A stretch of DNA of 28,433 nt from a virus: positions 1 to 28,433 of the IMG/VR virus record IMGVR_UViG_3300032282_006264; one strand, given 5' to 3'. The stretch's first letter is position 1. Each line of letters opens with the position of its first letter. Below, in pieces: positions 1 to 27,733 of the stretch. The notes under the pieces are model-generated. The model saw only the letters and a list, made by a program, of their open reading frames with translations. It did not search any database and was not told where the DNA came from. The position numbers and the translations under genes were made by a program.

Positions 1-440
1 AAGCCCAGAGGTTGCATTAGACGGAGCAATCGTGCTGCTACCAGAGAGTATATAGCTGAAAGTTTTGTAGTTTCTTGCAGTTGATGATCCATAGGGAGAT
101 ATGGCAACTGGAGCTATGAATCCAGAGGTTCCAGTTGCATACCTGAATGTCTTGTAGTTGTCTGAGGTTCCAGATGCCGATGTTCTTGGGATTGCAGAAG
201 AGGAAACGACATACTTGAATATTTTTCCGTTTGTCACCGCTCCGTCAAGAGGGCGAGCTGCTTTTGCTATATATCCGCTTGATCCAGTGGTTGTAAAGCT
301 GAAAATTTTTCCGCTGTTCGCAGAGCCTGCGGATGCAACAGTGTATGAAAGCGTTGTTGCCCCACCTCTTATTCTAAAAACCTTTCCATTTGATGCCGAC
401 GCATCAGTTGGCGTTATTGTTTGCGTTTGAGCGTTTCCAG
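1..440 (-). repeat. Short C-terminal repeats of the giant tail protein
   Basis: After the last FCCH-like unit the protein switches to units of about 25-35 residues. Each has a core NGKVF, SGKIF, NGKIF, NYKTF or NYKTF followed by an aromatic/Ser-Thr stretch and then a GxIAP or GYIAK element (residues about 2085-2220). The pattern continues to the window edge, so the total number of units is unknown. It is probably a fibrous beta-structure at the distal end; this is inferred from the repeat pattern only. Confidence 0.55.
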
Positions 441-3400
441 ATTTTATCACTGTGAAAACGTCTGGATTTCCAGTTCCGGAAACTTGCGAAATCGACTGTA
501 TCTGATAATCTCCATCAAGGTTAAATCCAACTCCCGCAAGGGTGACGTATTCATTTTGCTGAAATCCATGTGGCGATCCGCATGTGACAAGAATGGTTCC
601 TAGGGTATTTTGAACTGTGCCGATACGTATGCCGTCTCGCGCAACAGAAAAAATTCCGTTGAGCGAAGATCCAGTTCCGGTAATTCCAGAAATTGTGATT
701 GTATCCCCCTGCAAAAACCCATGCGGGATAGAGGTGGCTATGGTGCTTTCGTTGGCGGCAACTGTTCCAGTTGATGTTGCCCAGTTAACTGTTGTGCTTG
801 CGGTTGTTTGATAACTGAATGACTTTCCAGAGGTTGCTCTTCCGGTTAGGCCCGTCAAGTCTTCCCCAATAAAATCAACAGTAATTGATGAAAACTTTAC
901 CCAAAAATTAAAAGAGGGAATTGTGGAAGATTCTATCTTGGTGACATTATATGTTCCATTGTATTGCGTGCTTATGCCTGAAATCGTTACGGAGTCGCCA
1001 AGAATAAATCCGTGAGGATTAGTGCAGACAAATTGTATTAGACCATTTGCGACGGTTGCATATGATGCTATGTTTGTTAGAAGCTCTCCAGATATCGTAT
1101 CGCTATAAACACCTGTCAATCGGTTAATTGTAATTTTATATGTAAATGTTGTAGTAGTCGGAACTGAAACTACCGCGAAGAGCCCATTATACTGGCTTTG
1201 CCCATCTACATTTGCAACATTTATAGTATCGCCGACGGAAAGCCCATGAGCGGGCCCAGTTGTCAGCTGAACTGCGCCATTAGTCACTTTTGCAGTTTGT
1301 GACGTAAGGTTTATAAAATTTGTTCCGGCCGGAAGAGAAACGAAAAATCCTGCAGATGTAACACCTGATATTGGTGAAACAGTTGTAAGTATATTAAATC
1401 TTGAATCATTAAATCCGCTTAACTTTATAGCCTGATTTATTGAAAGTGCCCCAAACCCAGCGTTTATTCCTGCGCATGCTGCCCAGGCGACAGAGTTGCT
1501 AATAGAACCATTTAGTCCGGATGCAAATCCGTTAGTGAGGCTCGTGGCGTTCCCATTAAATTCGTACACGGGGTATGTTGCGGTTACCCCTGCGGATGTC
1601 GCTGCAGTTGATGGTGCAATCCCGATAGATGGAAGCGTGACGTTTGCAACATGTATTCTGATTACATTATTTGATTGCTGCGCGGCGACAGTACTGTTCA
1701 ATGACGGAAGATAAAATTTATTTGTTGGAGTTGCGCTATCCCAAGAGTCGTAATTTGGACCAACGTTTTTTATAATTAAAGCGTTGGTGTCAAATGCCGT
1801 AACGTTTGTACTTGTTGGAAAATTTGAAGATCCACTCAGTATGACTTCTGCATATTCCCCAACGACACAAGCGGTAAGCTTCGTGGTATTTCTCGTTGAT
1901 GCAACCGTTGCTGTGACCGGAACTTGATACGTAAATGCTGTAGAAGTAACGGTAAGAATTGTCCAAAGGCCGTCAAACGGAGCGCCCATATTTCTTACGG
2001 AAATTTTTTCGCCAGGCTGCATGTAGTGTGCAAATGTTCTGCTGGCATTGTATTGCCCAGTCGTAAGCGTTACCGTTGAGGCTGTCTGCCCGTTAATCGG
2101 AACACACTGATAGTTCTGTATTGATCTTCCCGTAGCCCTGGCAATAACCGTTCCTCCAGCAGCATACGGCGCTCCGGTGGGCCCGCCATTCATTGAAATT
2201 GCAGTTACGTTTGCAGTGCCACCATTCTGTCTTTTTGTTATCTGAATGCCTGATATATACTCATTAACCTCTGCGCCAATTTCTAAAACGACTGCATTTG
2301 CTTGATTTACTGTGCTTCCCGTGATTGTGACGGCATCTCCTGCGGCAATGGTTTGAACTGCGGACGTCCTCACTACTGCGCGGTTGCCGATGCGACCAGC
2401 ATAAGATAGCGCATAAGACCTTCCTGTAGATTGATAGGAATAGACTGGGGCGCTGGTTGATGAAACGGTAGCAACCCCGTCATATGGTGACCCAAGGCCG
2501 CTTATCAATACTGAATCTCCAGATGCTATTGGATTCTCAGCAGCTGTTCTTAGGGTTGCCACATCTCCGTAGCGAGAAGGATAGTTTACGCCTTCGGAAA
2601 TATCAGAAACTGAAAAAGTGCCACTAAATGGAGCGCCAACGCCAGATGAAACAACAACAGAGTCTCCGGGCTGATATCCGTGAGCGTATTCGGTTGTAAG
2701 CGTTGCCTTTGTGCCATCGTGTTGCTTGAACCGCACATTTGCAAATGTTCCCTCGACTATTGCTTGTGCCTGATCGCTAGCATCAAACGGTACATCTGCC
2801 CCTAAGATTGTAATACGATCTTGCACATTGAAACCATGCGCATTATGAGTGGAGAGCGTAGCCATATTCGCAACGCGCTGCTTATACGTGACGTTTGAGT
2901 GCACGGTGTCTACTGGGTATGGGCCGCCGTTGAAAGTTCCATCAATGCCAGAAATAGTTACGTTTTCGCCAGCAACAAGTGCATGTCTTTTTGCTGTTCT
3001 CAACGTTGCAATATTAGAAACTTTTTGCTTCTGAGCAATTTTTATTTTGCTGTCTACATAATTTTTAGATCCATCGAATGTGCCGCCAAGCCCAGCAACA
3101 GTAAAAAGCCCAGAACTGATCCCATGCGCGCCTTGCGTGTAAATAGTCGCGTTGGTGCCATCTCCGCCATACGCAATAACTTCTTTGCTTATTCCAGAAA
3201 GTCCAAATCGGTCATCTATTGTCAGCTGTCCGGATTTTATAACCGCTGCATCAAGACCAACTGTAGAAATTTTTTCACTTGTGATCGCATTAGTAAGTAT
3301 GTCGGCATTGCCGACTGCATTTTGCCAAGACCACTGTGATCCCGACGGCAAAGATGCATCCTTATAAACTCTTCTCAGCCCCGGAGGCGTGCCGCCAAGA

Positions 3401-6400
3401 TGGTACACAACCATTCCTTCCGGGTAATCGGCAAGGCCTGAAGGGTTGAGGTCGGGAAGGACTTCCTCTGATATGATTTCTATAGGCCTCAACGTGGATT
3501 GAAGCTTTTGAAGAGTTACAGATCCGTCTGCAACGGTTGCTTCGGTAAAGGATGGCTGGATTGGCTGGGTCGGGGTAGTAAATAAGCTAGAAGTTCCTTC
3601 CGAGCTTAAGGCCCGCACCTTATAGCGATATTGCAGCGCTGGGGAAAGGCCGGAGTCGACCATGTAGGTAGATTTCGAATTTTGTATTGTTCTGTATTCT
3701 CCGAAATTGTAATAAACCCAACCATCAATAGAAGTAGCAGAAATTGTCCCGGAATCAACTCCAACAAAGGTAAATGAAGTCGTGGTAGTTGATGCAACCT
3801 TCCATTGCCCCTCCAGCTTTAGTAGGCCGGAATCTGACGTGTTAAGATCTATCCTAATAATGTCGTTAATGACAAGCCCGTGCGACTCAGATGTTGTTAC
3901 CGTAACGTTTTGGCCGGACCTTGAAACATCTGATATCGACTTGTAGATTGCCTCTTGTCTTTGAATCTCAAAAGAGGAAATTTTCTTGTTTACTTCGCTG
4001 GTCTCATTATATTTCCAATTAATGCTTATGGACTTATCGTTAGATACGGCAGAGAGCTCCTCGGGACTATCTGGAATCTTTGGTATTGGATTTACTGCAG
4101 TAAGTTGCTTTATCTTCTCGCTTAAGCGAATAAATGAGCTTCTTTGAAGTCTAACATCTCCGCCAACAGTGATTGAGTAAATAACCTCCGTGCCCTGAAT
4201 GCTCCCCTGGACGGCCTTTACAATGAGCGGCTTCGCAACACCCATGACGCTCCACACAAATGGGACAACGTCGCCAACTGCCGGAACCGGATATACAGCA
4301 TCATAAGCATCCCTTGGCCGCATTTTGAACGTGTAGGATTCAATTGGGAGTCCATTTTGCTTCCAGTATGCGGCGGCAGCAAGCTCCGCGTCGGCCAGGG
4401 TCTCAACCCTTTCGTCAGTAATTGCCGCCTCTACTATTTTTCCATTTGTAGACCAGATTCCTGGCGTGAAATCATAATCGACGTACTGAACTGGATTTCC
4501 ATCTGAGTCGAGCAGGGCGACCTTGTCTCCAGTTGAATTTTTTGTGCGGAAAACCGCGTAGAGATGAAGTCTATTTGCAGTGTTTCCAGACTCTACTGGG
4601 CTATTGGGTATTTCCATTTCGTAAATAGGTACTGGCTGCCCCAGGTCCTCCGAGTCTCCGTATCCCATTTGCCCAGTGATAAGCACCATGCTCCAGTCAG
4701 TGAAATAAGCGTATCCCGACTGTTGATCGGTGCAAAGTCCCCTAACGGATGCTTTGGTAGCTCCGGTTGGAACGGTGATAATTTTCCATATCTTTTCCCA
4801 GTTTCCTGCCTGCGAAAGATTCCCAAGGAGATCAGATTGAATCTCATTACCCGATGAGTCATACCAGTCGATGTATGCAAGCCACCTGTCCTGGTGCTCC
4901 GATGCTTTTCCCCTAACAGAGATAAAATATTTTTCTCCATGTACCACTGTTGCGCGCGCAGACGGCGCTTGTTCTATGTACGAATTTTCAATTGCAGAAT
5001 ATGCAGCATAGCCCGAACCGTACGGGCCTGAGGTTGGGCCGGAAATAGAAAATCCGCCAGCGGATATCCAGTGATCAAGAGTTCCGTCATAAATTCCGTT
5101 TGAGACAAGTTCTTCAGTGGTTTTGGGGCGATAGTTTAGTCGGCACCTATATTCCCCTCCGGTGTCGTAGTACCCCTTATCTACCCAGTACTCAGCACCG
5201 GTTTTTTCAGAGATGTAGTCTAATATATTTCTAAGTGTTCTTCCGCCAAATTGCTCTGCATTTGGGGTGTCGCTTTCGTTGAAGTACGGGCTGAATCTAT
5301 ACTGAGTGTCAATTGCCTGCACTTTTTCTCGTATGTCTAAATTGACAGAATCCAGCCATGCCGTATCGAACAAAGACCCAAAAATATTTGCTGGGTATTG
5401 CCATCCGCGTATGTTGTCTTTTCCTATTCCAAGCCTAAAGTATGATCCTTCATAGTACCCGTTATGGGCCTCTGAAACTCCAACCTGCTGTTCCCCTGGG
5501 TTTTCGCCGGAAATCTCGTATACCTCCCCATCCGCCCATCCCCTTGCCGACCCAAAGGAAATAGCAAGCGGGGATCCAGAGGCAGCGAGTGATGAGATGT
5601 AGGAAAAAGATCCAGCTGAAACAGTAGCGTTGGTTATTGATGCGGCACCATTGTCGCCTGATTTCTTATAGGTAAATTTAGTGTTGCTTATTTTTGTTTC
5701 CACGGAAACAAAATCTGTGTTTTCAACAGAGAAACCAGAAGATTGCGGTATAGAAACAACAACTGGATCCCCGGCCACAAGGCCGTGGTTTGTTTTTGTT
5801 TCAACTGTTACTAAATTGCTTGATCGTGTTGCGCTTATTATGACTACCGGGTCCGGTATGGTGTTTATTGATTTGCCAAGGTACTCTAGGGATGAAAGCG
5901 AATCTTTCCTCACGTAAATTCTGTGAGCTGTTGCAAGCTGAGCGTTTTTCCAATAAACTTTCATTCTTTGCGTTGCGGTTCCAGCGCTTAGAATGATAGA
6001 GATTTCTTTTGTTGCCGGTCCGTATTGTGGCGAAATCCCGTCTCTGCCAACAAGCGAAGTAGAAAGCGATTGCATTCTTACGTAGTAAGTTCCGTCTGAC
6101 AAGTTTCCGCCAGTGGATTCCGAAACAACGCTAAGAGAATCTATTTGCCCAATAACTTTCGGAAGCGTTGCTGCAACCGTATAGTAGTCTGTGCCGCCAT
6201 TTATTATGTCTATATCCCTTGCGTCTCTTGGGGCATAGTAGTCCGCAATAATGTGTTCTTCAAGCAGCGCAGTGTTGTCTGCGCACTCTACGTCTTGCGT
6301 TATTGTGTTTCCAGATCTGTTAGTCGAAACTCTTGTAATGATCCCCGCAAAAAGAATTTCATTTGGGCTTATTTCTGTATCAACAACCCTAACTTCTGTT

Positions 6401-6660
6401 CTGTTAGGAATTTCTATAACAAATGATTCATCAAGTATCGCATTGTTTATTTTTTCCTGATCCGTGTCGCCAGGATAGTCCTTATATGAGTTTATGGATT
6501 TTGGAAGGATGGTCCACGCTTGGATACTGCAGTTTGCGCTTGTTCCCTCGCTATTGCCTTCCCACGAAAGGTTTTCGTAGTTTACGCGTGGGCTGATATC
6601 ATAAAAATCTGGTGTTACGCCATCGTATCTAAGCTTTACAAAAATCCTAACGTTTGCCAT
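1..6660 (-). CDS. Giant tail hub / tip protein with many FCCH-like repeats (C-terminus off the left edge)
   Basis: One frame stays open from ATG at 6660 to base 1 (2220 codons); I checked every triplet for stops. The start follows the tape measure stop directly (TAA then ATG) with a GGAAGG ribosome site 6 bases upstream. Residues about 1-150 look like a siphovirus tail hub, with an LFAGIITRV stretch near residue 103. Residues about 517-657 resemble a CBM4/9-type carbohydrate-binding beta-sandwich. Residues about 660-835 resemble the hub segment found before fibre regions. Residues about 861-1020 resemble a fibronectin type III domain. From residue about 1179 to 2060 there are repeated units of the form HGxxxGDxVxIxG...NG, like the E1 FCCH-like domains annotated in phage tail proteins. 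After residue 2074 come shorter repeats ending in GKxF or YKTF. By position and content this is the tail tip/baseplate hub with receptor-binding extensions. The structural role is fairly secure; the domain names rest on sequence resemblance read by eye. Confidence 0.85.
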   Translation of the reverse strand, partial: MANVRIFVKLRYDGVTPDFYDISPRVNYENLSWEGNSEGTSANCSIQAWTILPKSINSYKDYPGDTDQEKINNAILDESFVIEIPNRTEVRVVDTEISPNEILFAGIITRVSTNRSGNTITQDVECADNTALLEEHIIADYYAPRDARDIDIINGGTDYYTVAATLPKVIGQIDSLSVVSESTGGNLSDGTYYVRMQSLSTSLVGRDGISPQYGPATKEISIILSAGTATQRMKVYWKNAQLATAHRIYVRKDSLSSLEYLGKSINTIPDPVVIISATRSSNLVTVETKTNHGLVAGDPVVVSIPQSSGFSVENTDFVSVETKISNTKFTYKKSGDNGAASITNATVSAGSFSYISSLAASGSPLAISFGSARGWADGEVYEISGENPGEQQVGVSEAHNGYYEGSYFRLGIGKDNIRGWQYPANIFGSLFDTAWLDSVNLDIREKVQAIDTQYRFSPYFNESDTPNAEQFGGRTLRNILDYISEKTGAEYWVDKGYYDTGGEYRCRLNYRPKTTEELVSNGIYDGTLDHWISAGGFSISGPTSGPYGSGYAAYSAIENSYIEQAPSARATVVHGEKYFISVRGKASEHQDRWLAYIDWYDSSGNEIQSDLLGNLSQAGNWEKIWKIITVPTGATKASVRGLCTDQQSGYAYFTDWSMVLITGQMGYGDSEDLGQPVPIYEMEIPNSPVESGNTANRLHLYAVFRTKNSTGDKVALLDSDGNPVQYVDYDFTPGIWSTNGKIVEAAITDERVETLADAELAAAAYWKQNGLPIESYTFKMRPRDAYDAVYPVPAVGDVVPFVWSVMGVAKPLIVKAVQGSIQGTEVIYSITVGGDVRLQRSSFIRLSEKIKQLTAVNPIPKIPDSPEELSAVSNDKSISINWKYNETSEVNKKISSFEIQRQEAIYKSISDVSRSGQNVTVTTSESHGLVINDIIRIDLNTSDSGLLKLEGQWKVASTTTTSFTFVGVDSGTISATSIDGWVYYNFGEYRTIQNSKSTYMVDSGLSPALQYRYKVRALSSEGTSSLFTTPTQPIQPSFTEATVADGSVTLQKLQSTLRPIEIISEEVLPDLNPSGLADYPEGMVVYHLGGTPPGLRRVYKDASLPSGSQWSWQNAVGNADILTNAITSEKISTVGLDAAVIKSGQLTIDDRFGLSGISKEVIAYGGDGTNATIYTQGAHGISSGLFTVAGLGGTFDGSKNYVDSKIKIAQKQKVSNIATLRTAKRHALVAGENVTISGIDGTFNGGPYPVDTVHSNVTYKQRVANMATLSTHNAHGFNVQDRITILGADVPFDASDQAQAIVEGTFANVRFKQHDGTKATLTTEYAHGYQPGDSVVVSSGVGAPFSGTFSVSDISEGVNYPSRYGDVATLRTAAENPIASGDSVLISGLGSPYDGVATVSSTSAPVYSYQSTGRSYALSYAGRIGNRAVVRTSAVQTIAAGDAVTITGSTVNQANAVVLEIGAEVNEYISGIQITKRQNGGTANVTAISMNGGPTGAPYAAGGTVIARATGRSIQNYQCVPINGQTASTVTLTTGQYNASRTFAHYMQPGEKISVRNMGAPFDGLWTILTVTSTAFTYQVPVTATVASTRNTTKLTACVVGEYAEVILSGSSNFPTSTNVTAFDTNALIIKNVGPNYDSWDSATPTNKFYLPSLNSTVAAQQSNNVIRIHVANVTLPSIGIAPSTAATSAGVTATYPVYEFNGNATSLTNGFASGLNGSISNSVAWAACAGINAGFGALSINQAIKLSGFNDSRFNILTTVSPISGVTSAGFFVSLPAGTNFINLTSQTAKVTNGAVQLTTGPAHGLSVGDTINVANVDGQSQYNGLFAVVSVPTTTTFTYKITINRLTGVYSDTISGELLTNIASYATVANGLIQFVCTNPHGFILGDSVTISGISTQYNGTYNVTKIESSTIPSFNFWVKFSSITVDFIGEDLTGLTGRATSGKSFSYQTTASTTVNWATSTGTVAANESTIATSIPHGFLQGDTITISGITGTGSSLNGIFSVARDGIRIGTVQNTLGTILVTCGSPHGFQQNEYVTLAGVGFNLDGDYQIQSISQVSGTGNPDVFTVIKSGNAQTQTITPTDASASNGKVFRIRGGATTLSYTVASAGSANSGKIFSFTTTGSSGYIAKAARPLDGAVTNGKIFKYVVSSSAIPRTSASGTSDNYKTFRYATGTSGFIAPVAISPYGSSTARNYKTFSYILSGSSTIAPSNATSGL
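520..3150 (-). repeat. FCCH-like repeat array inside the giant tail protein
   Basis: These coding repeats share the pattern [HG][LFY]xxGDxVxIxG, then about 8 residues, then [NF][ND]G. The H-position falls near residues 1179, 1226, 1275, 1327, 1376 and 1436 (first cluster, about 47-60 residues apart), then about 1805, 1883, 1980 and 2031 (second cluster). Degenerate copies lie near 1545 and 1602, and isolated copies near residues 291 and 927 of the same protein. Some copies lose the His (Asn at 1376, Gln at 1436). The DNA copies are diverged, so this is an old protein-level repeat rather than a recent DNA duplication. Confidence 0.7.
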
Positions 6661-9600
6661 TTACAGCCTTCCAACCCCTGCTGATCGAAGCAGCGAGGAC
6701 TGGGCCCTCGACACTTCTTCTGCGAGCTTCCTTATATCATGGTCATTTCTTACGCTTGGATTGTTGATTATAACACTTGCGTTGATCTCGCCAGAATGCC
6801 CGCCGCCATAAGCAGGGCCGCCAAGCTTCCTAACCTCACTATTTGGCATCACCCTGCCAATTCCGCGCGGAAGTATAATCTCCGGGCCTCTTTCCCCCAC
6901 AAGAGTAGGAACATTCGGGATCGTCATGCCGCCGTCCGCCATCGCAATCATCTTTGTGCCAGCCACCCCAGAGAATGGCGTGGCAATCTTCTTTGGGACG
7001 GCAACTCCTGTGCTTACTACTTTTGGCATTGAGACAATTGGCTTTGAGGATGTTGTTGATCCGTATGGGCTATAAGATGAAGACGACGATATTGGAATGT
7101 TGTACGAGCTTCTTCCCGCCGCAAGCGGTATTGATTTTGTATTGCTTGATTTATTTATAAAGTTTGTATATACAAAGTCCCCGGCCATTTGACCCAAGAT
7201 GCTTCCAAGAAGCGTACCTATTCCCGGAATCGGTATGAGGGATCCAAGGCTTCCGCCTATGATTGATCCAACTGTACCTGCCGCAGCCCTTCCCATATCC
7301 CCGCCGCTGACTGCGGTTGCGATAAGGCCTGCTGCAGAAGCAAGGGGACCGCCAATTTTTGGAATTGCCCCAAGTGCGTTCATGCCAAGAGACATGGCCA
7401 TGTTTGGCAAATTTAGATTCCCGCTTGCGAACATTGACGCAGCATCAACGGCAATAGATGCAAGCGTTCCGCCAAATCTTGTTCCAAGTTTTGCATCAAT
7501 TGAACGTATTGTTGATGTTTTGCCGGTATTCCATTTTTGCTGCCCAGCAAGGCTGGAAACAAAGTTTTTTATTTTTGGATTATTTGAAGGAATAGACCCT
7601 TTATGCTCGGAAAAAACTCTATATATTTCTGCGTATAGCTCTCTTGGGTTTGTTGTTCCGTACGGCGTCGGGGATGCCCACTCTTTCCCGCCAAGCATCG
7701 ACCATTCATTATTGGGCGAGAATAGCTTTTCTCCCGCTGCCTTGCTAAGCGCGCTTGCGGCAAATTTTGATGTCTCTACTCCCGTTCCTATTTTACGTCC
7801 GGAAACAAGGGAAAGTAGTGCGTCAAGGGGAGAGGATGCAATTGATGAAGTTCTGTTTGTCCAATATTCAACAAGGTGACCAATTTCATGTGCGATATAA
7901 CCCGAAATATCATTGTTAGTCTGCGACAGTAAGAAGTTACCGGGTGCGTGTATGGATCTTGCTTCTGGCCTAGCAAGCGCGGCCGTTTTGCTTGTAGGCC
8001 TCAGTGAAACTTCTTCGCGAGCAGTATCGACAAATGCATCATCGGAATCTATATATATAACAGGCTTCTTGCCTTTTCCAAACATTCCCTTTGGAGCAAA
8101 AGAAATGGCTCTTTCTGCACCCTTCGCAACAGCTGAAAGATCTACTGGCCCGGGAATCGAAGAGTCGATGATAATATCGCCCCACGGGTAAGATATTCTG
8201 CTTCCAGTTCCTGATTTCGCTCTTGTTTCGCCAGCTGGAAGCGAAACATCTCCGACATACCCACCCTCAGCTCTGTGCTGAGCCCCAATAGAGGCAACAT
8301 TTGGTGGAAGCTTGTGGTTGGGTATTACGTACCCGCCGCCACCTGGGAACATTTTGAGAATTTCTGGACCGTTTTCGCCAACAAGATATGTTCCCTTGCT
8401 TGGAACGGCTCCGCCCTTTGCGTACTTGGAATTTATTGGCGCGTACTTAGTTAGGTCTACTTTCGATGTTATATATCCACCGAACCCAGCGGGAATTTCC
8501 GCGTTGGTGAAAAGTCCCCTAACCTTTGCAAATGCTGCCTTTTGAACGTTATATGCATTTGCCATTGCGGCGGGGTTATTAAAGCTTGCGCTTGTTTCTG
8601 CGGTTTTCTGGGCCTTAAACATCTCTCCGCCGGGGGCAAACATCGTAATTGCGTTTGCCCTTGCGCCTTGCCATGCGTAGTATCTTCCATCGCCCTTGCC
8701 GAACGGATTCTTTGCAGCGCTCAGCGCGGCTGCAGTTTCAGTAAATTTATTCTTCAGGTTTGCAATAAGCGCAACCGATGCCTCGGTCATAGACCTCTGC
8801 GCAAGATTTTGCAATGATGCAGCATACTCCTGTGCAAGCTGCGCATATTCCGGAGTTCCTATGCCGCGCCAATTGTCATATGGCCTTCCACCAAGCATAC
8901 TCTGGCTATTACTGGAGTTTGGATCGCTGGTGTTAGTGTTTGTTTTATCATCCTGAGCTGCCTTAAGCTGATTTCCAAGATCTTTAACTTTTTTAAGTTG
9001 CTCTTTAAGTTTATCGATCTGCTTGCCAAATTTCTCTAGAGTCGAATCCCATGTTCCAAGGAATCCGTCGCCAAAGTTTCTTGCATCTTCTGTGAGATTT
9101 GCATCGAGAACTCCAACCTCGGAAAGGGTAACGCTGTAAAGGTCGGCAATCATTTTTACCGCCTGGTCCCCTGTGATCTTGCCCTCTTCAATAAGGCGCA
9201 TGATCTCCGCCATTCCTTCTTGGAATTTCATCTTTGCAGCTTGGAATAGCTCGTCAATATGCTGCAAGCCAAGCTTCACTGGCTCGCTAGACATTGCCTC
9301 ATCTAGGGATATTTTCTTCCTCTCAAGAGCTGCCCTTTTAAGTTCTTCAGTCTTTGCGTCCTCTGCATCTCTCATCCTTGCGGCAGCATCAAGTGGGTCT
9401 ATCGAAGCATCGTATTGCGCAAGTCTAGCCATTTCAACATTTCTAGTTGCGCTCTTAATGCTTTTTTCTATTTCAAGCAGTCTATTTTTCTTATCTTGCA
9501 GCTCGATTTCTTTCTTTAGGGCAAGAAGGTTCCATTCAGTTCCGTCAACCATAACTTTCTGAGTAGAAAGGAATGCATCTTTAGCTTTTTCGAGAGCTTC

Positions 9601-12600
9601 CGCCATTTTCTTTTCAAATACAGCAGTTACCCTTGCCTCGAATGCGGACTGAACCGCGCTCATCGTTTTCTGTATGGCAGATAGTTTTTCATTTGCCTTT
9701 TGCAGCGCATCAGAAAGCGCCGTGGTGTCTGTGGCTGCTCCGCCAATAACAATTCCAAGAGACGCAAGGGCTTCTTTTGTCAGGCCCCACTTCCCTGCAG
9801 CCTGGTCAAGAATTGAATTAAGCTGTTCTGTGCTTGTAACAAGCTCTGACTGCGACATGATGAGCGCAATTTCTGCTTTTGCGTATTGCATTGCTTTCTG
9901 TGCAGCGTCTACGTCCCCAGCCTGTCTAAATTTATTAGTATAGAAAGCAGCAGCTTGGTTTTGTATTGCAGTTATATAATCTTGATACTCTTTCATGCCT
10001 TTCTTGGTAAGATTCAGCCCGCTTGTGAAGCTTGTAAACATTTGACCGAGATCAATGCTATTGGAGTACTTAACAAGATCTTCTACGCTAATGGCAAATT
10101 GACCTGAGAGCTTCATCAGGTCTGCATACGAGAGCGAAGCTATTCTTGCATTTTCTCCGAGAACGGAAGTATTCACGCCTCCGGTCTTTATCGCCTCCGC
10201 AAACGCGCGTGACTTTTCGTCCATTTGAGTAAGATCTTGCTCTACGTTTGTTGCCTCTTTTTGAACTCCGGCAAGATCAGATGCAATATCCCCAGCGCTG
10301 CTGCCCACCAGGCTTCCAAGTATTCCGCCTATTGCGGTGCCGATCCCGGGGAGCACCAATGATCCAATCGTTGCTCCGGCTACGCCGCCCGCAAGCCCGC
10401 CACCAGCCCTCGCCCCGGCCCTTAGCGGATCTACTCCAGACATTACGTCTGCGCCAAATCCAAGTGCAGCAAATAGGCCGCCCAGTTTTCCAACTGACTT
10501 GATTCCGCTCTTTAGCGCTCCGCCGATTCCACCTGCGTTCTTAAGATTAGCTCCAATCTTCATGAAGCCGCCAGCACCCTTTGCTGCAGATGCACCAGCG
10601 CCAAGGAACCCAGAGCCAGGAAGGAAGCTTCCGCCCTTCATTAAGCTGATATACGAACCAAGTCTAAATATTGCCTGGCCGAATAACTTTACTCCCGAAA
10701 GAAAATTACCCGAAGCTCTGCTGATCCCGGCTGCTGAGATTTTCAACTCTCCAAAAAGAGATCTCAGTCTGACAAGAGATCCCGTTTCGGACGTTGACTT
10801 TGCAACTATTGCCGCCCCCCTGGTTGCCGTTACTGCTTCTCCAAGAATGTTCCCGCCACTTACTGCTCCGCGGAGCTCTCCAACGTTTTTGGCGCTGCCT
10901 GCAAGCGTTTCAAGCTTGAGCTTAAAGGCGTTTAGGGCAGTGGCAGACTGCTCTGCCGTGAGGGCAGTTTCTTCAACCGCCCTAGCAAGAACATCTTTTG
11001 CTGCTTTTGTCTGTATGCGAACATAAGATGATATAGATTTAGCGCCAGCACCCTTCTTCCCAATTGTTTGAAAGATGTCATCTGTTGCAATTTTTCCGGC
11101 GGCTCTTGAGTTGAATCCGCCAACTGCACGAAGTGCTCCGCCAACTGCACCCCCGCTTGCGGCCTTAACAAGCTGCCCAGTATTTTTATCAAAAACTGCT
11201 GACTTTCCAAAAAGCATTCCGCCAAAAAGCTTTTTCCCTGCCATGAGCGCAAGGGCTACACCTGCAAGATTTGCCGCCCCTGGTATTGCATTGATAACCT
11301 GAAGAAGAGAGTTCAATAGCTTCAACATCAAGTTTAGCGCAGGAATAATCAACTGGAGAGAGATAAGGAAAGTTGCGCCAAATGTCTCGCTCATTGACGA
11401 TACGAGCTTTGCGATTATAGGTATAAGATTATTTTGTATAGTCTTAACAACTTGTTGCAGCGGTGCCGCATATTTATTAACAAAATCCCTAAATCCGAAC
11501 TCGTTAGAAGAATATATTTCGGAAAGTTTTCCGATTCCGATAATAATTGCTGCTATGGTGAATAGAAGTGGGTTTGCATCAAGCGCTATCGTCATTGCCT
11601 GGAGGGCTATCGTGGCTACGACTATTCCGCGAACAAGGTTTGTGCGCATCATTTCGGCAACTGCGTGCACACCCTCTAGGAAGTAATCGACTACGTCGCC
11701 AACGGCACCTGCCTGCTTCCCAAACTCCCCAAGCGTTCTTCCTACTTCAACAAATCCGTATACTACCTTCTCTCCAATTGTAGAAAGATCAGAAAGAGCG
11801 CCCCCTATTGCTGGGAGCGCAGACTGAAACGTTGCTGCAAACCCTTCTGCCATTTTTCTGGCAGCTCTGGATTGCATGAATAGTCCAGCCTGGTACATCG
11901 CGTCCCTGATTCCGTCGTAGATCGGCTTGGTGATAAGCGCAACGAAGTATTGACTTGTATCCTCAAGAGTTGAAAGCGCACCCTTAAACGTTTTAGAAAG
12001 CGCCTCCATTCCGCCCCTAAACTCAATCCCAAGCTCCTGAATAATTGCATTCGCCGCAGCCTTGCCCTCGAGCCTTCCTCGCTTTGCAAGGATTCTCATT
12101 GCTTGTACTGGTCCTTCGTTCTGGATTAAGTCAACAACTTGCTTAAACTCTGCCTTTGTGACTTTCCCAAATTGAATTCCGTATTGACCAAGCTCGTTTC
12201 CCTTTAGGCCTTTCTTGGCAATGATCGTTGCAGCTTTGGTAAGGTCTGCCATTGCGTTCAATGCGTTTTCAGTCGATTTCCCCATAGCGTCTTTTTGATT
12301 TATGATTGCGGCGTCAATGACTTTACCGTTAAATTTAATAGAGACGCCACCGGCCTTAACCATGTCCTTGATGACTGCCCTAGAGAGAAGCTCATATCCA
12401 GCAATACCGGCATTTGCTAATTGCATCATGTCGTTCTGATACACGCGACCAGATTGTTTCATTTGGCCAAGCGCGTATGTAATTCTGTTTAGCTTGTCGT
12501 CTTCCCCGCCGAGCGCTGCAACCGCGTCTCCGATTGCCTGAAGATTTGGAAGTATTTGTTTAGTTTCAAATCCAAACGCCCGCATTCTTCTTGCTGATTC

Positions 12601-15600
12601 GACAAGCTCTGGGAATCTAAACGGGGTAACGTTTGCAAAATTTTGAATTTCTTTAATGAGAATTGCAGCTTTTTCTTTTGCACTTCCAAGGTCGCCAGAT
12701 AGAGAGCCAAGCGCATCTTGCTCATTTCTGAACAGCGTTTCGAAAGCTACTTGTGAATTCTCAAGTTGCTGATTGAATCCAATGACTCCACCCTGAAGGT
12801 GTCCAAGAAGTGCCCCGACCCCTTGGCTTATCTGCCCAACTACTTGTTGGCTGAATCCAAATTTTATCTGATCTGCAAATTTTCCGAGTATCCCAGAAGT
12901 TTTCTGCGTGCTCTGCTGCATGTTCTGCATCTGTTGGTCGTATTCCTGAGAGCCTGGAACGACAAACCCCTTGGGGAGATTGATTTTTGTGCCGCCTCCG
13001 CTCCCGCCTGATCCGCCAGAGGCAACAGCCCCAGCTTTTGCCTGCGCTGTAATTGCAGATGCAAGACCCTTAGCATTTATCTTTCCGCCAGATACGGCAG
13101 AAAGCTCCCCCATCATCTGGGCGATTCCCTTTATTGCGGATTTAATTTCTGCAATTTTCTTTTGCGGAACGGGTTGAACTGATCCAAGCGCTGCCATGAT
13201 TGCCGCAACCCCAACTGCGGTTGCCTGCATCTTTTTAATATTGGGACCACCGGCGCTTGGAACGCCAAAGTCTCCTGACCCACCAGCCGGAGCAGTATTT
13301 CTCCTTCCCCCACCACCTCCGCCAGATCCACCAGACCCACCGGCAGCTGCAGCAACTGTTCTTCTTACCCTTGGGGTAGCGGAAGCAACTACTTCATCAG
13401 CAACTGCGGCAACAGCCTGTGCCGTCCTAGTGCTTGATCTTCCCCCACGACCGGACGCCCTTGCTTCTGTTTTTACATTTTCGGATGCTGCAGAAGCAAC
13501 CGCATCGGTGGCTTCCTCAATCTTATCTTTTACCGATCCTTTTCCGGAAATTTTTGCAGCCTGAGCTCTCCGTTGTGCCATTCCAAGATCTGTGGCGCCT
13601 GTTGGCGCTGCAGAGCGACCAAGCAGCGCCTGCAGCGCAAGATGCGGACTATTGGCCGCTCCATCGGGATTAACAAACGAGCCCAGCCCCATTTTCGTTG
13701 CGGCTGTGCTCAGGTGGCTCATCGCGCCCCAGGCGGTGTCTCCCTTTTTGGTATTCCACCAATTCGGAGAGATTGGCTTTACCCCTCCCTTTGTTCCAAC
13801 TTTTGCTTTTGCAGAAAGCTCAGAAATTGCCTCGTCGCTCATTGATGAAACAAGACTCCTTGCAAAGCCCTTTGTGATTCCGCTCATTCCAAGGGATTTT
13901 GCCGAAGTGCCATTTGCAATTTTTTCAAATTCTGACCTTAGGCTTGTCAGCGCGCTCTTAATGTATCCACTTGCAACCGATGGGTTTTGGGCGGCCCCAA
14001 TCATTCCAAGAAGGGTTTGATTGTCTGCAGATGCAGCTATGCCAAGCTTTCTTGCTTTTTCTGGGTCATGAAGGGCGGCGGCAAGAGCTTGCCTTCTAGA
14101 AAGCCCCTGAATTCTGCCCCCCTTAAGGTCTGCCGCCTCATAAACTTTCAGTTTCCCCATTTCCTTTTCGAGATTTTTAAGCTCTCTTTCGGCAGCAGAG
14201 GACCTGATAGACATTCTAAGGAATCTAATCCTTGCAACGCGTTCCTCTATGCTTGCATCTGCCCCCACTGGCTTTTTCCCGTCAGATTTTCCAAGTTCCC
14301 TATTTAGACTTACCGCCCTTTCCTGAGCTTCCTTTGCTGCTTTTTGCAGTTTGTCGTAAGCGGCCTGATCTTTAATCGCAAATTTTCCAGCGCCGCCAGA
14401 AGAGTATTCGCTAACCCTTACAGCCTTAAGGCCAACTGCTTCCATGAAAAATGGGGAATAGCTAAACCAGGTTCCTCTTGTTGCGCTCTTTAGCCTTGCC
14501 CTGAAATTAGCTTTTATCTGCTTGTTTTTTGTTCCCGAAAGTATGTCACCAGAAGATCCCCCAAGATGCATGTATATCCCGTGCATAATTGTAAGCTCTC
14601 TGGACATAAACTCGGAAAGCGATACAACCTTATCTACGTTCTCCTTAGAGGGGTTGGTTTGTGCATTTCTTATTGCCGATCCCAGGTCTTTCCATCTTGC
14701 ATCCGCAGCAAGTTTAATTTTTTCCCTTAGGCCTGCTGGGGCTTCGCTCTGGCGCATGAAGTTGCTAAAACCACCAGCTCCCCTACGTATTCTATTTTGT
14801 TTAAACGCATTAATGTGATTAATTAGGTCGTTATAGTTTGAAGTTTGAGCATTTTTACCAACCCTTACAGAGTACGTCGAGTCGGCTGCGATTCCGCCTT
14901 TGATAAGGTTAGTTATCGCGGGCCCAAATCTTTTCTTCAGGTCGGCATAATACTTATTGAAGTTTTTTCTTTGCTCTGCTGAAACCTCATCTGGATTTCT
15001 GGTAATTCTTGGTTTCGCAAACCCTATTTCCCCCTTGCTTGTTTTGTTCGCGCGATCAACCGCTGCCTTAAGGGTTCGTGGGTCAATTCTGAACGGGAAC
15101 ATGGCAGACCCGCCATTCTTTTTTGAAGCCCTTAGCAATCTTGATCTGTGCTCATCCGGCAGTCCGGAAATTACTTTTGCGAAGGCCTCAAGGCTATTTC
15201 CAAGAAGCTCTACCTGCGTTCTTACAATGACGCTTCCGGCACCGTCAAAATTTGATTTTCCCTGGCTTGCTATAAATGATTTTCCGTCGCTAATTGTTTT
15301 ATCTATCCACTTGATTGCTTCATGCGCATTTTCAAATTTATGAGTTTTTCCGCCAACGGTAATTTTGGATAAATGTTGAACAAAAGCCGCCTCGGCTTTT
15401 GCCCTCGACGCGACAAAAGCAATTTCTTTTGCTGCCTTAGCCTCCTTGATTGCAGCTGTCTTAAGTGAGTTTTCTATTTTTCTTTGCGCCCTAGAAGAAG
15501 CCTCTGTTCTCATCCTCGGCGTAATTTGAGCAGCTATCGATCTGGCTTTTACGTAATTGGCAACAAGTCCAGATGCGTCAGATTCTATTTTTGCAATTAC

Positions 15601-16572
15601 TGCTTCTACTTTTGCAAGATCAATTTTTCCGTTTTTGTCAACAAGCCTTATTGGGGCCTTCTCGCTTTGGAATGCCGTTGGCCGCGCCCCAAGCTTTGGA
15701 TCTGCGTATTTTCCCTTTGCCCTGCTAGCAATGACTCCACCTTTTCTATAATCCTCAATCGCTTGAGAGATTAACTGCGCTGGCGTTTTGCCCTTGTTCT
15801 TTGGCATTGATTTAAGGGTTGCAACATGCCGACCGATTATCGCAAGATCCTCAGAGAGGCTGGTAAGCTTCCCTACGTTTTTGTCGGAAAGCTTTGCGTT
15901 CCTAAGTTCCTGTCGAAGATTTGTTGGCTTTCCACTTGCGTCAAACTTAAGTCCTGCCCCATGGTTGCTCAGGAACATTGAAAGAAGTATCGCGGCTTCC
16001 GAGCGAGCTCCAGCCTTTCGAAGCTGAACAAGGGCTTTGTCAAGCGCCATGGACTTAAAGTCCGCGGCAGTTCTTTGCTTATTAAGCGGCCCCCTGCCAA
16101 TCATTGAAAGTATTTTTGCCTGAGATCCTATTGGTATCCCAAGAGATCTCATTGCGGCTCGGTACAGGTTATCTACATAAGAATCGCTTCCCTTATCCCA
16201 TCCCTTTTGGCTGATGATTCTTTTAGCAAGCGACTCCGCAAGCCTATCTACTTTTCCGCCTTTTACTGCCTTGCTTACAATATCTTCTATCTTTTTAATA
16301 TTTGCAGAAATCCCAACTACGTCTTTGCTTTCTATGAAATTCTTTATTGGCTTTTTGAGATGGTCGGGTATATCTCTTACGTTGCCTGAAATAAGTGCTT
16401 GGATTCTTTTATTTTGCTCTTTTAAGCTTGCGCCTTCTTCAATCCCGGCGTACTTGACAAGCCAGTTATATATTTCCTTTTTATCTTTTCCGCCCAGCTT
16501 GAATGTAACTTGAGTCCAAAATTCTTCAGAGAAATCTTCGTTAAAAATAAGTTCTGGGTTATTACTTGCCAT
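6661..16572 (-). CDS. Tape measure protein (3303 residues) with metallopeptidase-like domain
   Basis: This protein sets tail length and occupies the tail lumen. ATG at 16572 has GGAG 4 bases upstream and overlaps the end of the chaperone reading frame by 11 bases. Residues 1-1070 are Ala/Lys-rich with no recognised domain. Gly/Ser linkers lie near 1075-1100 and 1183-1196. A classic tape-measure N-terminal domain (FETLF, then SARRMRAFGF) covers about 1270-1395. Hydrophobic segments lie near 1643-1679 and 1735-1755, with Gly-rich hydrophobic stretches near 2055-2103 and 3095-3141. A long charged coiled coil spans about 2280-2480. The LVGExGPEI motif typical of tape measure proteins occurs twice, near 2730 and 3228. 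Residues 2895-2899 are HEIGH, followed about 80 residues later by ELYAE (E2978 and E2982), the layout of a gluzincin-type zinc peptidase. At about 0.15 nm per residue the tail could approach 0.5 micrometre if the whole chain acts as the ruler. Confidence 0.95.
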   Translation of the reverse strand: MASNNPELIFNEDFSEEFWTQVTFKLGGKDKKEIYNWLVKYAGIEEGASLKEQNKRIQALISGNVRDIPDHLKKPIKNFIESKDVVGISANIKKIEDIVSKAVKGGKVDRLAESLAKRIISQKGWDKGSDSYVDNLYRAAMRSLGIPIGSQAKILSMIGRGPLNKQRTAADFKSMALDKALVQLRKAGARSEAAILLSMFLSNHGAGLKFDASGKPTNLRQELRNAKLSDKNVGKLTSLSEDLAIIGRHVATLKSMPKNKGKTPAQLISQAIEDYRKGGVIASRAKGKYADPKLGARPTAFQSEKAPIRLVDKNGKIDLAKVEAVIAKIESDASGLVANYVKARSIAAQITPRMRTEASSRAQRKIENSLKTAAIKEAKAAKEIAFVASRAKAEAAFVQHLSKITVGGKTHKFENAHEAIKWIDKTISDGKSFIASQGKSNFDGAGSVIVRTQVELLGNSLEAFAKVISGLPDEHRSRLLRASKKNGGSAMFPFRIDPRTLKAAVDRANKTSKGEIGFAKPRITRNPDEVSAEQRKNFNKYYADLKKRFGPAITNLIKGGIAADSTYSVRVGKNAQTSNYNDLINHINAFKQNRIRRGAGGFSNFMRQSEAPAGLREKIKLAADARWKDLGSAIRNAQTNPSKENVDKVVSLSEFMSRELTIMHGIYMHLGGSSGDILSGTKNKQIKANFRARLKSATRGTWFSYSPFFMEAVGLKAVRVSEYSSGGAGKFAIKDQAAYDKLQKAAKEAQERAVSLNRELGKSDGKKPVGADASIEERVARIRFLRMSIRSSAAERELKNLEKEMGKLKVYEAADLKGGRIQGLSRRQALAAALHDPEKARKLGIAASADNQTLLGMIGAAQNPSVASGYIKSALTSLRSEFEKIANGTSAKSLGMSGITKGFARSLVSSMSDEAISELSAKAKVGTKGGVKPISPNWWNTKKGDTAWGAMSHLSTAATKMGLGSFVNPDGAANSPHLALQALLGRSAAPTGATDLGMAQRRAQAAKISGKGSVKDKIEEATDAVASAASENVKTEARASGRGGRSSTRTAQAVAAVADEVVASATPRVRRTVAAAAGGSGGSGGGGGGRRNTAPAGGSGDFGVPSAGGPNIKKMQATAVGVAAIMAALGSVQPVPQKKIAEIKSAIKGIAQMMGELSAVSGGKINAKGLASAITAQAKAGAVASGGSGGSGGGTKINLPKGFVVPGSQEYDQQMQNMQQSTQKTSGILGKFADQIKFGFSQQVVGQISQGVGALLGHLQGGVIGFNQQLENSQVAFETLFRNEQDALGSLSGDLGSAKEKAAILIKEIQNFANVTPFRFPELVESARRMRAFGFETKQILPNLQAIGDAVAALGGEDDKLNRITYALGQMKQSGRVYQNDMMQLANAGIAGYELLSRAVIKDMVKAGGVSIKFNGKVIDAAIINQKDAMGKSTENALNAMADLTKAATIIAKKGLKGNELGQYGIQFGKVTKAEFKQVVDLIQNEGPVQAMRILAKRGRLEGKAAANAIIQELGIEFRGGMEALSKTFKGALSTLEDTSQYFVALITKPIYDGIRDAMYQAGLFMQSRAARKMAEGFAATFQSALPAIGGALSDLSTIGEKVVYGFVEVGRTLGEFGKQAGAVGDVVDYFLEGVHAVAEMMRTNLVRGIVVATIALQAMTIALDANPLLFTIAAIIIGIGKLSEIYSSNEFGFRDFVNKYAAPLQQVVKTIQNNLIPIIAKLVSSMSETFGATFLISLQLIIPALNLMLKLLNSLLQVINAIPGAANLAGVALALMAGKKLFGGMLFGKSAVFDKNTGQLVKAASGGAVGGALRAVGGFNSRAAGKIATDDIFQTIGKKGAGAKSISSYVRIQTKAAKDVLARAVEETALTAEQSATALNAFKLKLETLAGSAKNVGELRGAVSGGNILGEAVTATRGAAIVAKSTSETGSLVRLRSLFGELKISAAGISRASGNFLSGVKLFGQAIFRLGSYISLMKGGSFLPGSGFLGAGASAAKGAGGFMKIGANLKNAGGIGGALKSGIKSVGKLGGLFAALGFGADVMSGVDPLRAGARAGGGLAGGVAGATIGSLVLPGIGTAIGGILGSLVGSSAGDIASDLAGVQKEATNVEQDLTQMDEKSRAFAEAIKTGGVNTSVLGENARIASLSYADLMKLSGQFAISVEDLVKYSNSIDLGQMFTSFTSGLNLTKKGMKEYQDYITAIQNQAAAFYTNKFRQAGDVDAAQKAMQYAKAEIALIMSQSELVTSTEQLNSILDQAAGKWGLTKEALASLGIVIGGAATDTTALSDALQKANEKLSAIQKTMSAVQSAFEARVTAVFEKKMAEALEKAKDAFLSTQKVMVDGTEWNLLALKKEIELQDKKNRLLEIEKSIKSATRNVEMARLAQYDASIDPLDAAARMRDAEDAKTEELKRAALERKKISLDEAMSSEPVKLGLQHIDELFQAAKMKFQEGMAEIMRLIEEGKITGDQAVKMIADLYSVTLSEVGVLDANLTEDARNFGDGFLGTWDSTLEKFGKQIDKLKEQLKKVKDLGNQLKAAQDDKTNTNTSDPNSSNSQSMLGGRPYDNWRGIGTPEYAQLAQEYAASLQNLAQRSMTEASVALIANLKNKFTETAAALSAAKNPFGKGDGRYYAWQGARANAITMFAPGGEMFKAQKTAETSASFNNPAAMANAYNVQKAAFAKVRGLFTNAEIPAGFGGYITSKVDLTKYAPINSKYAKGGAVPSKGTYLVGENGPEILKMFPGGGGYVIPNHKLPPNVASIGAQHRAEGGYVGDVSLPAGETRAKSGTGSRISYPWGDIIIDSSIPGPVDLSAVAKGAERAISFAPKGMFGKGKKPVIYIDSDDAFVDTAREEVSLRPTSKTAALARPEARSIHAPGNFLLSQTNNDISGYIAHEIGHLVEYWTNRTSSIASSPLDALLSLVSGRKIGTGVETSKFAASALSKAAGEKLFSPNNEWSMLGGKEWASPTPYGTTNPRELYAEIYRVFSEHKGSIPSNNPKIKNFVSSLAGQQKWNTGKTSTIRSIDAKLGTRFGGTLASIAVDAASMFASGNLNLPNMAMSLGMNALGAIPKIGGPLASAAGLIATAVSGGDMGRAAAGTVGSIIGGSLGSLIPIPGIGTLLGSILGQMAGDFVYTNFINKSSNTKSIPLAAGRSSYNIPISSSSSYSPYGSTTSSKPIVSMPKVVSTGVAVPKKIATPFSGVAGTKMIAMADGGMTIPNVPTLVGERGPEIILPRGIGRVMPNSEVRKLGGPAYGGGHSGEINASVIINNPSVRNDHDIRKLAEEVSRAQSSLLRSAGVGRL

Positions 16573-18799: not shown

Positions 18800-19252
18800 C
18801 TAAGGCCTAGCGCCTGGATTTGCAACTGGATCCATGCGTCCGCCATAGTACTTGCAAGTGCGGCATTCTCGGTCGCCGTTCTTTCTCCAGTAAGTGTTGC
18901 CCCAAGTATACTCATGTCCGTGATTGCAATGGGTAGCTCGCAATTTTCCAGCGTCGCCACGACGGGTGTTCATTCTTGGGGTGACAACTTCCAAGTGCTG
19001 TAGGTTGACACACTTCCTATTTCTACACAAGTGGTCAATCTGAAGACCTTTTGGAACTGCCTCGCGGGCGGTCTCGTAATGCCAACGGTGGGCATTGATC
19101 TTTTTTCCAGTTTCAGACTTAAATGCGCCGTAGCCCGATGGGTCAAGCGCTCCGGTCCATTCCCAGCAGCCAGATTCAACCTGATTTACGTAGCGCATAA
19201 AGCGCATCAGTGGGTCAGTCTTCGGCCTACCTCTTTTTGTAACTTGTTCCAT
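18800..19252 (-). CDS. HNH homing-type endonuclease
   Basis: The 150-residue product carries an HNH core: CWEWTG at 29-34, an AHRWHYE segment at 54-60, then IDHLCRNRKCVN at 72-83 with catalytic-type D73-H74, C76, C81 and N83, followed by H86. A second zinc-ribbon-like part has H108-C109, H113, C130 and C133 (RECRTC), common in phage free-standing HNH endonucleases (HNH_3 type). Such enzymes cut or nick DNA and mostly act as mobile homing genes, or occasionally help packaging. There is no intein or intron sign around it. It lacks a Shine-Dalgarno sequence but has TATGAT six bases before the ATG. Its place between lysis-type and tail genes fits a mobile insertion. Confidence 0.9.
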   Translation of the reverse strand: MEQVTKRGRPKTDPLMRFMRYVNQVESGCWEWTGALDPSGYGAFKSETGKKINAHRWHYETAREAVPKGLQIDHLCRNRKCVNLQHLEVVTPRMNTRRGDAGKLRATHCNHGHEYTWGNTYWRKNGDRECRTCKYYGGRMDPVANPGARP

Positions 19253-19300: not shown

Positions 19301-19528
19301 CTACTCTTCGCGAAGTCGAATTGGCATAGTGACAAGCCAAGCAATCGTTAGCCACATTAATATAGAGCCAACAAAGTTTCTAGTATCTCCATCCGGCAAG
19401 ACAATCCAACCAACCAAAAGTCCAAATATTGTCCACGATTGAGATACCAGCTCGTTGATAACATCCCTGACGCTTGGGCGCCACTTAATAATGTTTTTTG
19501 CGATTGCCACAACAGCTTCTCTATTCAT
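19301..19528 (-). CDS. Holin candidate, small two-TM protein
   Basis: The 75-residue product starts at ATG 19528. I chose this start because GAGGAG lies 5 bases upstream; it overlaps the end of the preceding gene by 8 bases. The N-terminal 30 residues are charged and amphipathic, followed by two hydrophobic segments, about 33-45 (TIFGLLVGWIVLP) and 52-68 (FVGSILMWLTIAWLVTM), with a short DGDTR turn between them and a basic/acidic tail RLREE. This is the layout of class II holins, which permeabilise the membrane at lysis. The neighbouring XhlA-like one-TM protein supports a lysis role. No endolysin is visible nearby, so the name remains tentative. Confidence 0.55.
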   Translation of the reverse strand: MNREAVVAIAKNIIKWRPSVRDVINELVSQSWTIFGLLVGWIVLPDGDTRNFVGSILMWLTIAWLVTMPIRLREE

Positions 19529-20786: not shown

Positions 20787-20971
20787 TACTTTCCTTGATT
20801 GGAAAGCCAAACGATCAGGCTGCTTATTCCGGTGATGCCAAAAATACCAATAACAAATTTTGCCAGTCGGTACGCGCCGCGAGTTTCTGCCATTTCTATG
20901 CGCATTGCAGAAAGATCGTCGTCAATTTTATCAAGGCGCTGAAGAATCTGATCGATGTTGTTTGCGGTCAT
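20786..20971 (-). CDS. XhlA-like one-TM protein with N-terminal coiled coil
   Basis: The 61-residue product has a heptad-like N-terminal half (IDQILQRLDKIDDDLSAMRIEMAETR) and one hydrophobic helix (FVIGIFGITGISSLIVWL) near the C-terminus. This is the layout of XhlA/hemolysin-type phage proteins that assist holins at the membrane. ATG 20971 has AAAGGA about 9 bases upstream. Its stop TAA shares a base with the start of the secreted protein gene, so the two are translationally coupled. The family name is by architecture only. Confidence 0.55.
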   Translation of the reverse strand: MTANNIDQILQRLDKIDDDLSAMRIEMAETRGAYRLAKFVIGIFGITGISSLIVWLSNQGK

Positions 20972-23778: not shown

Positions 23779-24048
23779 CTACTCCCAGATTGTTACAAAC
23801 CCTTCTTCAGTAGGGTCGTAGCCTGCGCATGGGGAGATATGCTCAGCCCAAGAGCCATTGTAGAAGCATCCAATATGAACCTTTTCTCCGTCAAGTTTAA
23901 TCTCATTTTCCAGATAGGCATGCTCTCCATTTGGAAGCGTTTTTGCTATTGCGTTTAGGTAACCCCATGGGTACGGTGGCTCCCCGTCAGCAACAAGCCT
24001 AGCCAGAACGATGTGGTCAATATCGCAAATTATAACTATGTCAGACAT
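23779..24048 (-). CDS. Hypothetical small acidic protein
   Basis: The 89-residue product starts at ATG 24048, overlapping the stop of the third glycine-rich gene by one base (TGATG), so translation is coupled. Visible features are an N-terminal beta-like run (IVIICDIDHIVLARLV), a PPYPWGY turn, two isolated cysteines, and an acidic C-terminus (DPTEEGFVTIWE). No signal peptide or membrane segment is present. I do not recognise a family. Its place directly after the adhesin array could mean a small chaperone or accessory for the fibres, but this is only context. Confidence 0.6.
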   Translation of the reverse strand: MSDIVIICDIDHIVLARLVADGEPPYPWGYLNAIAKTLPNGEHAYLENEIKLDGEKVHIGCFYNGSWAEHISPCAGYDPTEEGFVTIWE

Positions 24049-25064: not shown

Positions 25065-25065
25065 G

Positions 25066-26175: not shown

Positions 26176-26177
26176 AC

Positions 26178-27125: not shown

Positions 27126-27128
27126 GGT

Positions 27129-27725: not shown

Positions 27726-27733
27726 ATAAACTC

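Follow-up and report, generated by a model that had tools for sequence, protein, structure and literature searches.

What does a metallopeptidase-like motif near the C terminus of a phage tape measure protein (TMP) do? The question is raised by IMG/VR virus record IMGVR_UViG_3300032282_006264, which was analysed over its whole length of 28,433 nucleotides (referred to here as the window; at 28.4 kb, it is probably a fragment) and in which a protein of 3303 residues carries the sequence HEIGH. Phages inject enzymes, and TMPs are usually seen as rulers, channels, or, at most, wall hydrolases. The answer we favor, at a probability of about one in two, is that HEIGH marks an accessory injected zinc protease of the gluzincin, or zincin-like, type, carried as an exchangeable cassette near the TMP C terminus and acting on host or co-injected proteins at entry.

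The protein is encoded on the minus strand by an open reading frame at positions 6661 to 16572. A first-pass annotation had called it a TMP from the DNA letters alone, and this assignment is borne out by Pfam TMP_3, the only Pfam family above the cut-off (residues 1296 to 1448, E value of 4.4e-11), and by matches to three tape-measure families of PHROGs. The residue numbers it gave for HEIGH (2895 to 2899, window positions 7876 to 7890) and RELYAE (2977 to 2982), and hence for E2978 and E2982, are exact. HEIGH is the sole HExxH of the TMP; residue composition predicts 0.009 occurrences, and shuffled sequences contained 0.0055 on average. The joint pattern HE-x-[GA]-H ... Y-x(5,6)-E-x-[YF]-[AGS]-[ED] appeared in 0 of 20,000 shuffles, and a chance origin of the combined HEIGH and Y/E motif is therefore excluded. 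The spacing Y2971-x6-E2978-x3-E2982 is that of the anthrax-lethal-factor class. The elements of the protein are listed below, related TMP loci being given L numbers and alignments A numbers.

6661..16572, minus strand: tape measure protein, 3303 residues (open reading frame; TMP_3; PHROG tape-measure families).
12229..12687, minus strand: TMP_3 core, residues 1296-1448 (Pfam; TMP core searches).
8305..8424, minus strand: first LVGExGPE motif region, residues 2717-2756, left border of the cassette (identity to the motifs of other TMPs).
6901..8382, minus strand: inserted cassette, residues 2731-3224, about 490 residues (absent from L003, L006, L011, and L018, whose sequence runs on across the gap).
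7543..8202, minus strand: zincin-like domain, residues 2791-3010 (alignments A1, A4, and A7; predicted template modeling score [pTM] of 0.67).
7876..7890, minus strand: HEIGH, residues 2895-2899 (H, E, and H invariant in the family).
7627..7662, minus strand: YGTTNPRELYAE, residues 2971-2982, with E2978 as the likely third zinc ligand (E2978 column at least 90% conserved).
7093..7497, minus strand: glycine-rich, charge-poor segment, residues 3026-3160 (39-52% identical in zincin-bearing TMPs).
6829..6948, minus strand: second LVGExGPE motif region, residues 3209-3248, right border of the cassette (motif comparison).
6664..6837, minus strand: conserved TMP C terminus, last 58 residues (70-72% identical to L003 and L006).

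A search with the TMP core yielded 76 TMP loci, many of them giants of 3000 to 5600 residues with one to three HExxH motifs on the N side or the C side of the core, and the C-side HExxH domains of related TMPs proved homologous to the window zincin. In an alignment of twelve such domains (20 to 30% identity to the window), W2797, G2798, F2831, H2895, E2896, and H2899 are invariant, and G2898, E2978, and A2981 are at least 90% conserved. Because of this conservation, E2978 is the likely third zinc ligand; E2982, whose column holds D or E in nearly all members, is likely a second-shell residue. In L059 the third-ligand motif is displaced by one helical turn, and the ligand assignment is thus not absolute. 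The gluzincin zinc-site layout proposed in the first-pass annotation therefore holds at the level of sequence, as both motifs, HExxH and an E-x-Y/F-A-E-like sequence, are conserved together in eight divergent homologues and a marginal match to lethal factor is collinear with them. Its placement of the motif within a domain starting near a YIDSDDAF segment was right, but the true start lies about 50 residues earlier, at a conserved [FY]-x-W-G (W2797-G2798); likewise, the range 7560 to 8120 located the domain correctly and missed its extent (zincin at about residues 2791 to 3010, window 7543 to 8202; cassette at about 2731 to 3224, window 6901 to 8382). A degenerate or structural zincin fold, retained without catalysis as filler of the tail tube or as a length spacer, would fit the fast evolution of the domain and the low-confidence loops of its model. 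We regard it as highly improbable: domains with only 20 to 30% identity elsewhere all retain H, E, and H and an almost unchanged third-ligand motif, and the ratio of nonsynonymous to synonymous differences per site (pN/pS) of about 0.2 to 0.3 in L038/L041 and L038/L039 indicates purifying selection.

A single-sequence search of IMG/VR with the window domain found no match; nor did searches of cultured phages, for which the domains of the window, L062, L070, and L074 and the glycine-rich segment served as queries, or of GTDB genomes, queried with the TMP core and alignment A3. Alignment A6 retrieved only the already-known L074 contig, and A1 was too divergent for a pattern search. Further HExxH domains, unrecognized by Pfam, lie on the N side of the TMP core in L031, L034, L035, L038, L046, L049, L062, and others, some with an E-x3-E motif (L046, YGATDYRELLAESY; L034, SPYEAMAEAYRIM).

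The fold was predicted with two AlphaFold models, each from a 12-sequence alignment: residues 2791 to 3027 of the window TMP (mean predicted local distance difference test [pLDDT] of 63, pTM of 0.67, with low-confidence loops) and the L074 domain (pLDDT of 68, pTM of 0.70). In both, HExxH sits in a long helix (positions 96 to 116 of the window model) and ExYAE in a later helix that follows a β-strand region, with a disordered loop in between; the local confidence at the two motif helices is fair. Foldseek against the PDB listed insulin-regulated aminopeptidase, lethal factor, collagenase H, selecase, and an M61 peptidase among the matches of the window model (best E value of 0.95) and M61, YbeY, lugdulysin, leukotriene A4 hydrolase, and matrix metalloproteinases (MMPs) for L074 (best E value of 0.027); against viral models, a phage protein named "Lethal factor" ranked third (E value of 0.31). 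The matches are mostly HExxH zincins (M1, M34, M9, selecase, M61, M30, and MMPs), none individually significant. Among solved structures, the best sequence match, and the sole collinear one, is the lethal-factor catalytic domain, with HEIGH on HEFGH and YGTTNPRELYAEIYRVF on YGRTNEAEFFAEAFRLM. This phmmer match is marginal (E value of 0.076, total over two collinear pieces), and the family profile also puts the same domain first, at 0.076. The collinear HEFGH and YG-T-N-x-x-E-x-x-A-E motifs of M34/ATLF are present in the phmmer alignment, and 0 of 9 family members matched Pfam ATLF at E values up to 1. A profile comparison with the lethal-factor-like gp18 family of mycobacteriophages aligned the HExxH helix alone (probability of 6%, against 0.1% for an unrelated control). 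For these two reasons, membership of M34/ATLF was dropped as unsupported; that the domain would work like a gluzincin is well supported by its sequence.

How the domain came to lie in this TMP is suggested by its surroundings. Zincin and glycine-rich segment follow one another, in that order, between two LVGExGPE motifs (at 2731 and 3225). The TMPs closest in the core, L003 and L006 (62 to 65% identical), align with the window TMP up to about residues 2756 to 2773 and again from about 3172 to 3225, skipping the middle, and they have one LVGExGPE motif each instead of two. By this comparison the cassette is accessory, since the closest TMPs lack it. The first LVGExGPE copy of the window TMP shares 59 to 65% of its residues with the corresponding copy in most cassette-bearing TMPs (48% for L074) and 32 to 39% with the single motif of L003 and L006, whereas the last 58 residues of the window TMP are 70 to 72% identical to those of L003 and L006, against 54 to 58% for the cassette-bearing TMPs. 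Because the border motif resembles cassette-bearing TMPs and the C terminus resembles cassette-less ones, the simplest interpretation is transfer of the block from a different TMP lineage into a TMP that had no cassette. The slot holds a zincin in 12 of 16 distinct two-motif TMPs and other sequence in four (L025, L028, L030, and L035); among the TMP loci compared, no single-motif TMP has a C-side HExxH. The alternative cargo of these four is 700 to 800 residues long with a common "KPGP...GGTGW" region, and it matched no Pfam family. Homologues of the glycine-rich segment (34 to 98% identity) occur in all zincin-bearing slots compared; glycine makes up 19% of the segment, and six of 110 residues are charged.

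The slot can be seen to change between otherwise close relatives. Identity between L062 and L065 falls to 47% in the zincin, against 99% for the core, 98% for the glycine-rich segment, and 97% for the C terminus; for L059 and L070 the corresponding values are 30%, 88%, 63%, and 100%. Sliding comparisons of both pairs restrict the C-side drop in identity to the slot, and the DNA alignment agrees with the exchange seen at the protein level. A constant scaffold with a swapped functional domain, as in polymorphic toxins, was thus found in L062/L065, in L059/L070, and in the provenance of the window module. Between L062 and L072, synonymous differences per site (pS) are 0.42 in the core and only 0.025 in the zincin, which suggests that the zincin block was recently exchanged. 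The two zincins differ by 28 nonsynonymous and 5 synonymous changes, versus 8 and 24 just downstream (P of 1.3e-6); L038 and L041 show the same contrast between zincin and flank (P of 1.3e-4), with a pN/pS of 0.31 in the zincin and 0.04 to 0.09 in the glycine-rich segment and C terminus. The zincin evolves faster than its flanks.

This pattern bears on what the protease would cut. The zincin might be a self-processing enzyme that acts on the TMP or on a further tail protein, either at assembly or following injection, for instance to release the C terminus as in T5 pb2 or lambda gpH; autoprocessing has been proposed by Iyer et al. for the zincins of polyvalent proteins (PMC5512222), and the window zincin likewise adjoins a glycine-rich segment. 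However, the nearest TMPs manage without the domain, and zincins of near-identical TMPs are only 30 to 47% alike although the flanks, where the cut site would be, barely differ. A fixed substrate in the enzyme's own chain should not require such variation, and we therefore judge self-processing unlikely. Two facts favor a target in the host over self-cleavage: sister TMPs dispense with the domain, and it differs between TMPs whose remaining sequence is almost unchanged.

A third possibility is that the domain cuts peptidoglycan cross-links or a wall-bound protein at entry. Peptidase_M23 was absent from the window and 18 related records, so another wall enzyme would be needed somewhere; this negative covers the M23 family alone, in records some of which are fragments. 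HExxH-type gluzincins are rarely wall hydrolases, and relatives without the cassette presumably enter too. TMP wall hydrolases are known, and T5 pb2 has a muralytic metallopeptidase motif (PMC10038345); on balance, a wall peptidase seems to us quite improbable. The first-pass annotation had offered tail-protein processing, cleavage of host proteins on injection, and attack on cell-wall peptides side by side; cassette swapping and fast evolution favor an accessory host-directed role, with lower odds left to the other two.

From the accessory-protease reading we infer zinc binding, proteolysis, delivery, a membrane role, and a host target, in the following sequence. The TMP would be threaded unfolded inside the tail tube, and at infection its C-terminal end would exit first. 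The glycine-rich segment may then associate with the cytoplasmic membrane or aid crossing, and the zincin would fold in or at the host envelope or in the cytoplasm, where it could cut a host protein (a surface, membrane, or defense factor) or a co-injected protein. TMPs occupy the tail tube and exit at infection; that of T5 has its C-terminal residues at the tip of the tail and is cut between its hydrophobic stretch and the muralytic metallopeptidase motif (PMC10038345). The membrane role is proposed by analogy with the glycine-zipper effector Tde1, whose N terminus resembles the C-terminal regions of some TMPs (PMC10240207).

Several results weigh against the accessory-protease reading. Neither Pfam nor PHROGs recognizes the zincin-like domain, the models reach a pLDDT of only 63 to 68, and neither gave a fold match at an E value of 0.001 or better. 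The glycine-rich segment fails the 1.6 hydropathy cut-off and is not significantly enriched in GxxxG (6 versus 3.7 expected, P of 0.14); a proven transmembrane zipper was dropped on these two tests. Mosaicism also affects other TMP segments, including the N-side zincin between L038 and L035, and exchange is thus not confined to the C-side zincin. Finally, the nonsynonymous-to-synonymous ratio of 1.6 in the L062/L072 zincin is by itself not significantly above 1, and positive selection as such was dropped.

Zincins in large injected phage proteins (PMC5512222) and metallopeptidases in TMPs are already known. The metallopeptidase (MPTase) zincins of injected polyvalent proteins and N4-like virion RNA polymerases, one of them matched to lethal factor by HHpred, likewise combine HExxH with a C-terminal glutamate and reside in very large phage proteins (PMC5512222). 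A weak ddrB-like ParB match, a domain typical of polyvalent proteins, lies near the N terminus of the L062 TMP (residues 236 to 348; PF18763, E value of 1.8e-4, under the curated cut-off). Unlike those zincins, ours is carried by a TMP as an exchangeable C-terminal cassette between paired LVGExGPE motifs, and "tape" is not mentioned in PMC5512222. Lethal-factor-type gluzincins (MEROPS M34, Pfam ATLF, and PPEP relatives) share HE[IFV]GH and a Y followed seven residues on by E and four further by a second E (Y2971/E2978/E2982), but the match has an E value of only 0.08, Pfam ATLF is unmatched, and the window family has the extra conserved [FY]-x-W-G start. T5 pb2 and gp96 of Thermus phage P23-45, a giant TMP with a working RNA polymerase, are TMPs with a metallopeptidase domain and hydrophobic stretches, but those domains are not described as HExxH gluzincins or as exchangeable (PMC10038345, PMC10770324); in T5 the metallopeptidase follows the hydrophobic stretch, whereas the window zincin precedes the glycine-rich segment. 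The effectors Tme and Sle1 of actinobacterial contractile injection systems combine a TMP-like scaffold with exchangeable functional domains (PMC11126660, PMC13277306); they belong to bacterial devices, with domains including an endonuclease and a toxin, whereas the window holds a phage TMP with a zincin. The mycobacteriophage Omega gp18 family (BAKA gp17) has an HExxH...EALAEAF protein matched to lethal factor by HHpred (PMC3706429), but it stands alone, and only its HExxH helix aligned with the window family. In the open-access full-text literature, we found no description of a TMP slot whose exchangeable cassette is a gluzincin-type domain. A survey of phage protein mosaicism detected mosaic signals in TMPs and confirmed no genuine recent case (PMC10684548); L062 and L065, with modules 97 to 99% identical around a zincin 47% identical, are a clear candidate for one.

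The other window genes noted here are also on the minus strand. Positions 1 to 6660 encode an open-ended tail protein of at least 2220 residues with many "HGF..GD.V.I.G" repeats (Pfam E1_FCCH, E value of 2e-13), and positions 24048 to 28433 encode a run of glycine-rich proteins, several in tandem, that end in "GICVIRY" or a similar sequence (Gly_rich_2) and are probably tail-fiber components. An HNH endonuclease (18800 to 19252; HNH_3, E value of 1e-9) lies amid the tail genes, and the protein at 19521 to 20810 has an apparent signal peptide and a long Pro/Ser/Glu/Thr repeat (PSPTPEPTPSP). A family-4-like glycosyltransferase (21369 to 22574) is 34 to 36% identical to those of Pontimonas phage phiPsal1 and Microcystis phage Mae-JY09; this similarity is only loose and does not assign a host. 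A WhiB gene, sought as a host clue, was present in 0 of 19 records.

More tentatively, and with some doubt on our part, the TMPs of this uncultivated phage group may be polymorphic effector-delivery scaffolds. A constant position close to the tail tip, with an LVGExGPE motif on either side, would then accommodate fast-evolving cassettes that can replace one another; most of them would be lethal-factor-like proteases, injected before the DNA to cut strain-specific host proteins. If true, bacterial polymorphic toxins would have a counterpart in phages. A defined slot in which zincins are exchanged would turn the tail into a programmable protein injector, and rapid coevolution with host targets would be expected; such a target, if found, would reveal host proteins that limit phage entry in abundant uncultivated bacteria.
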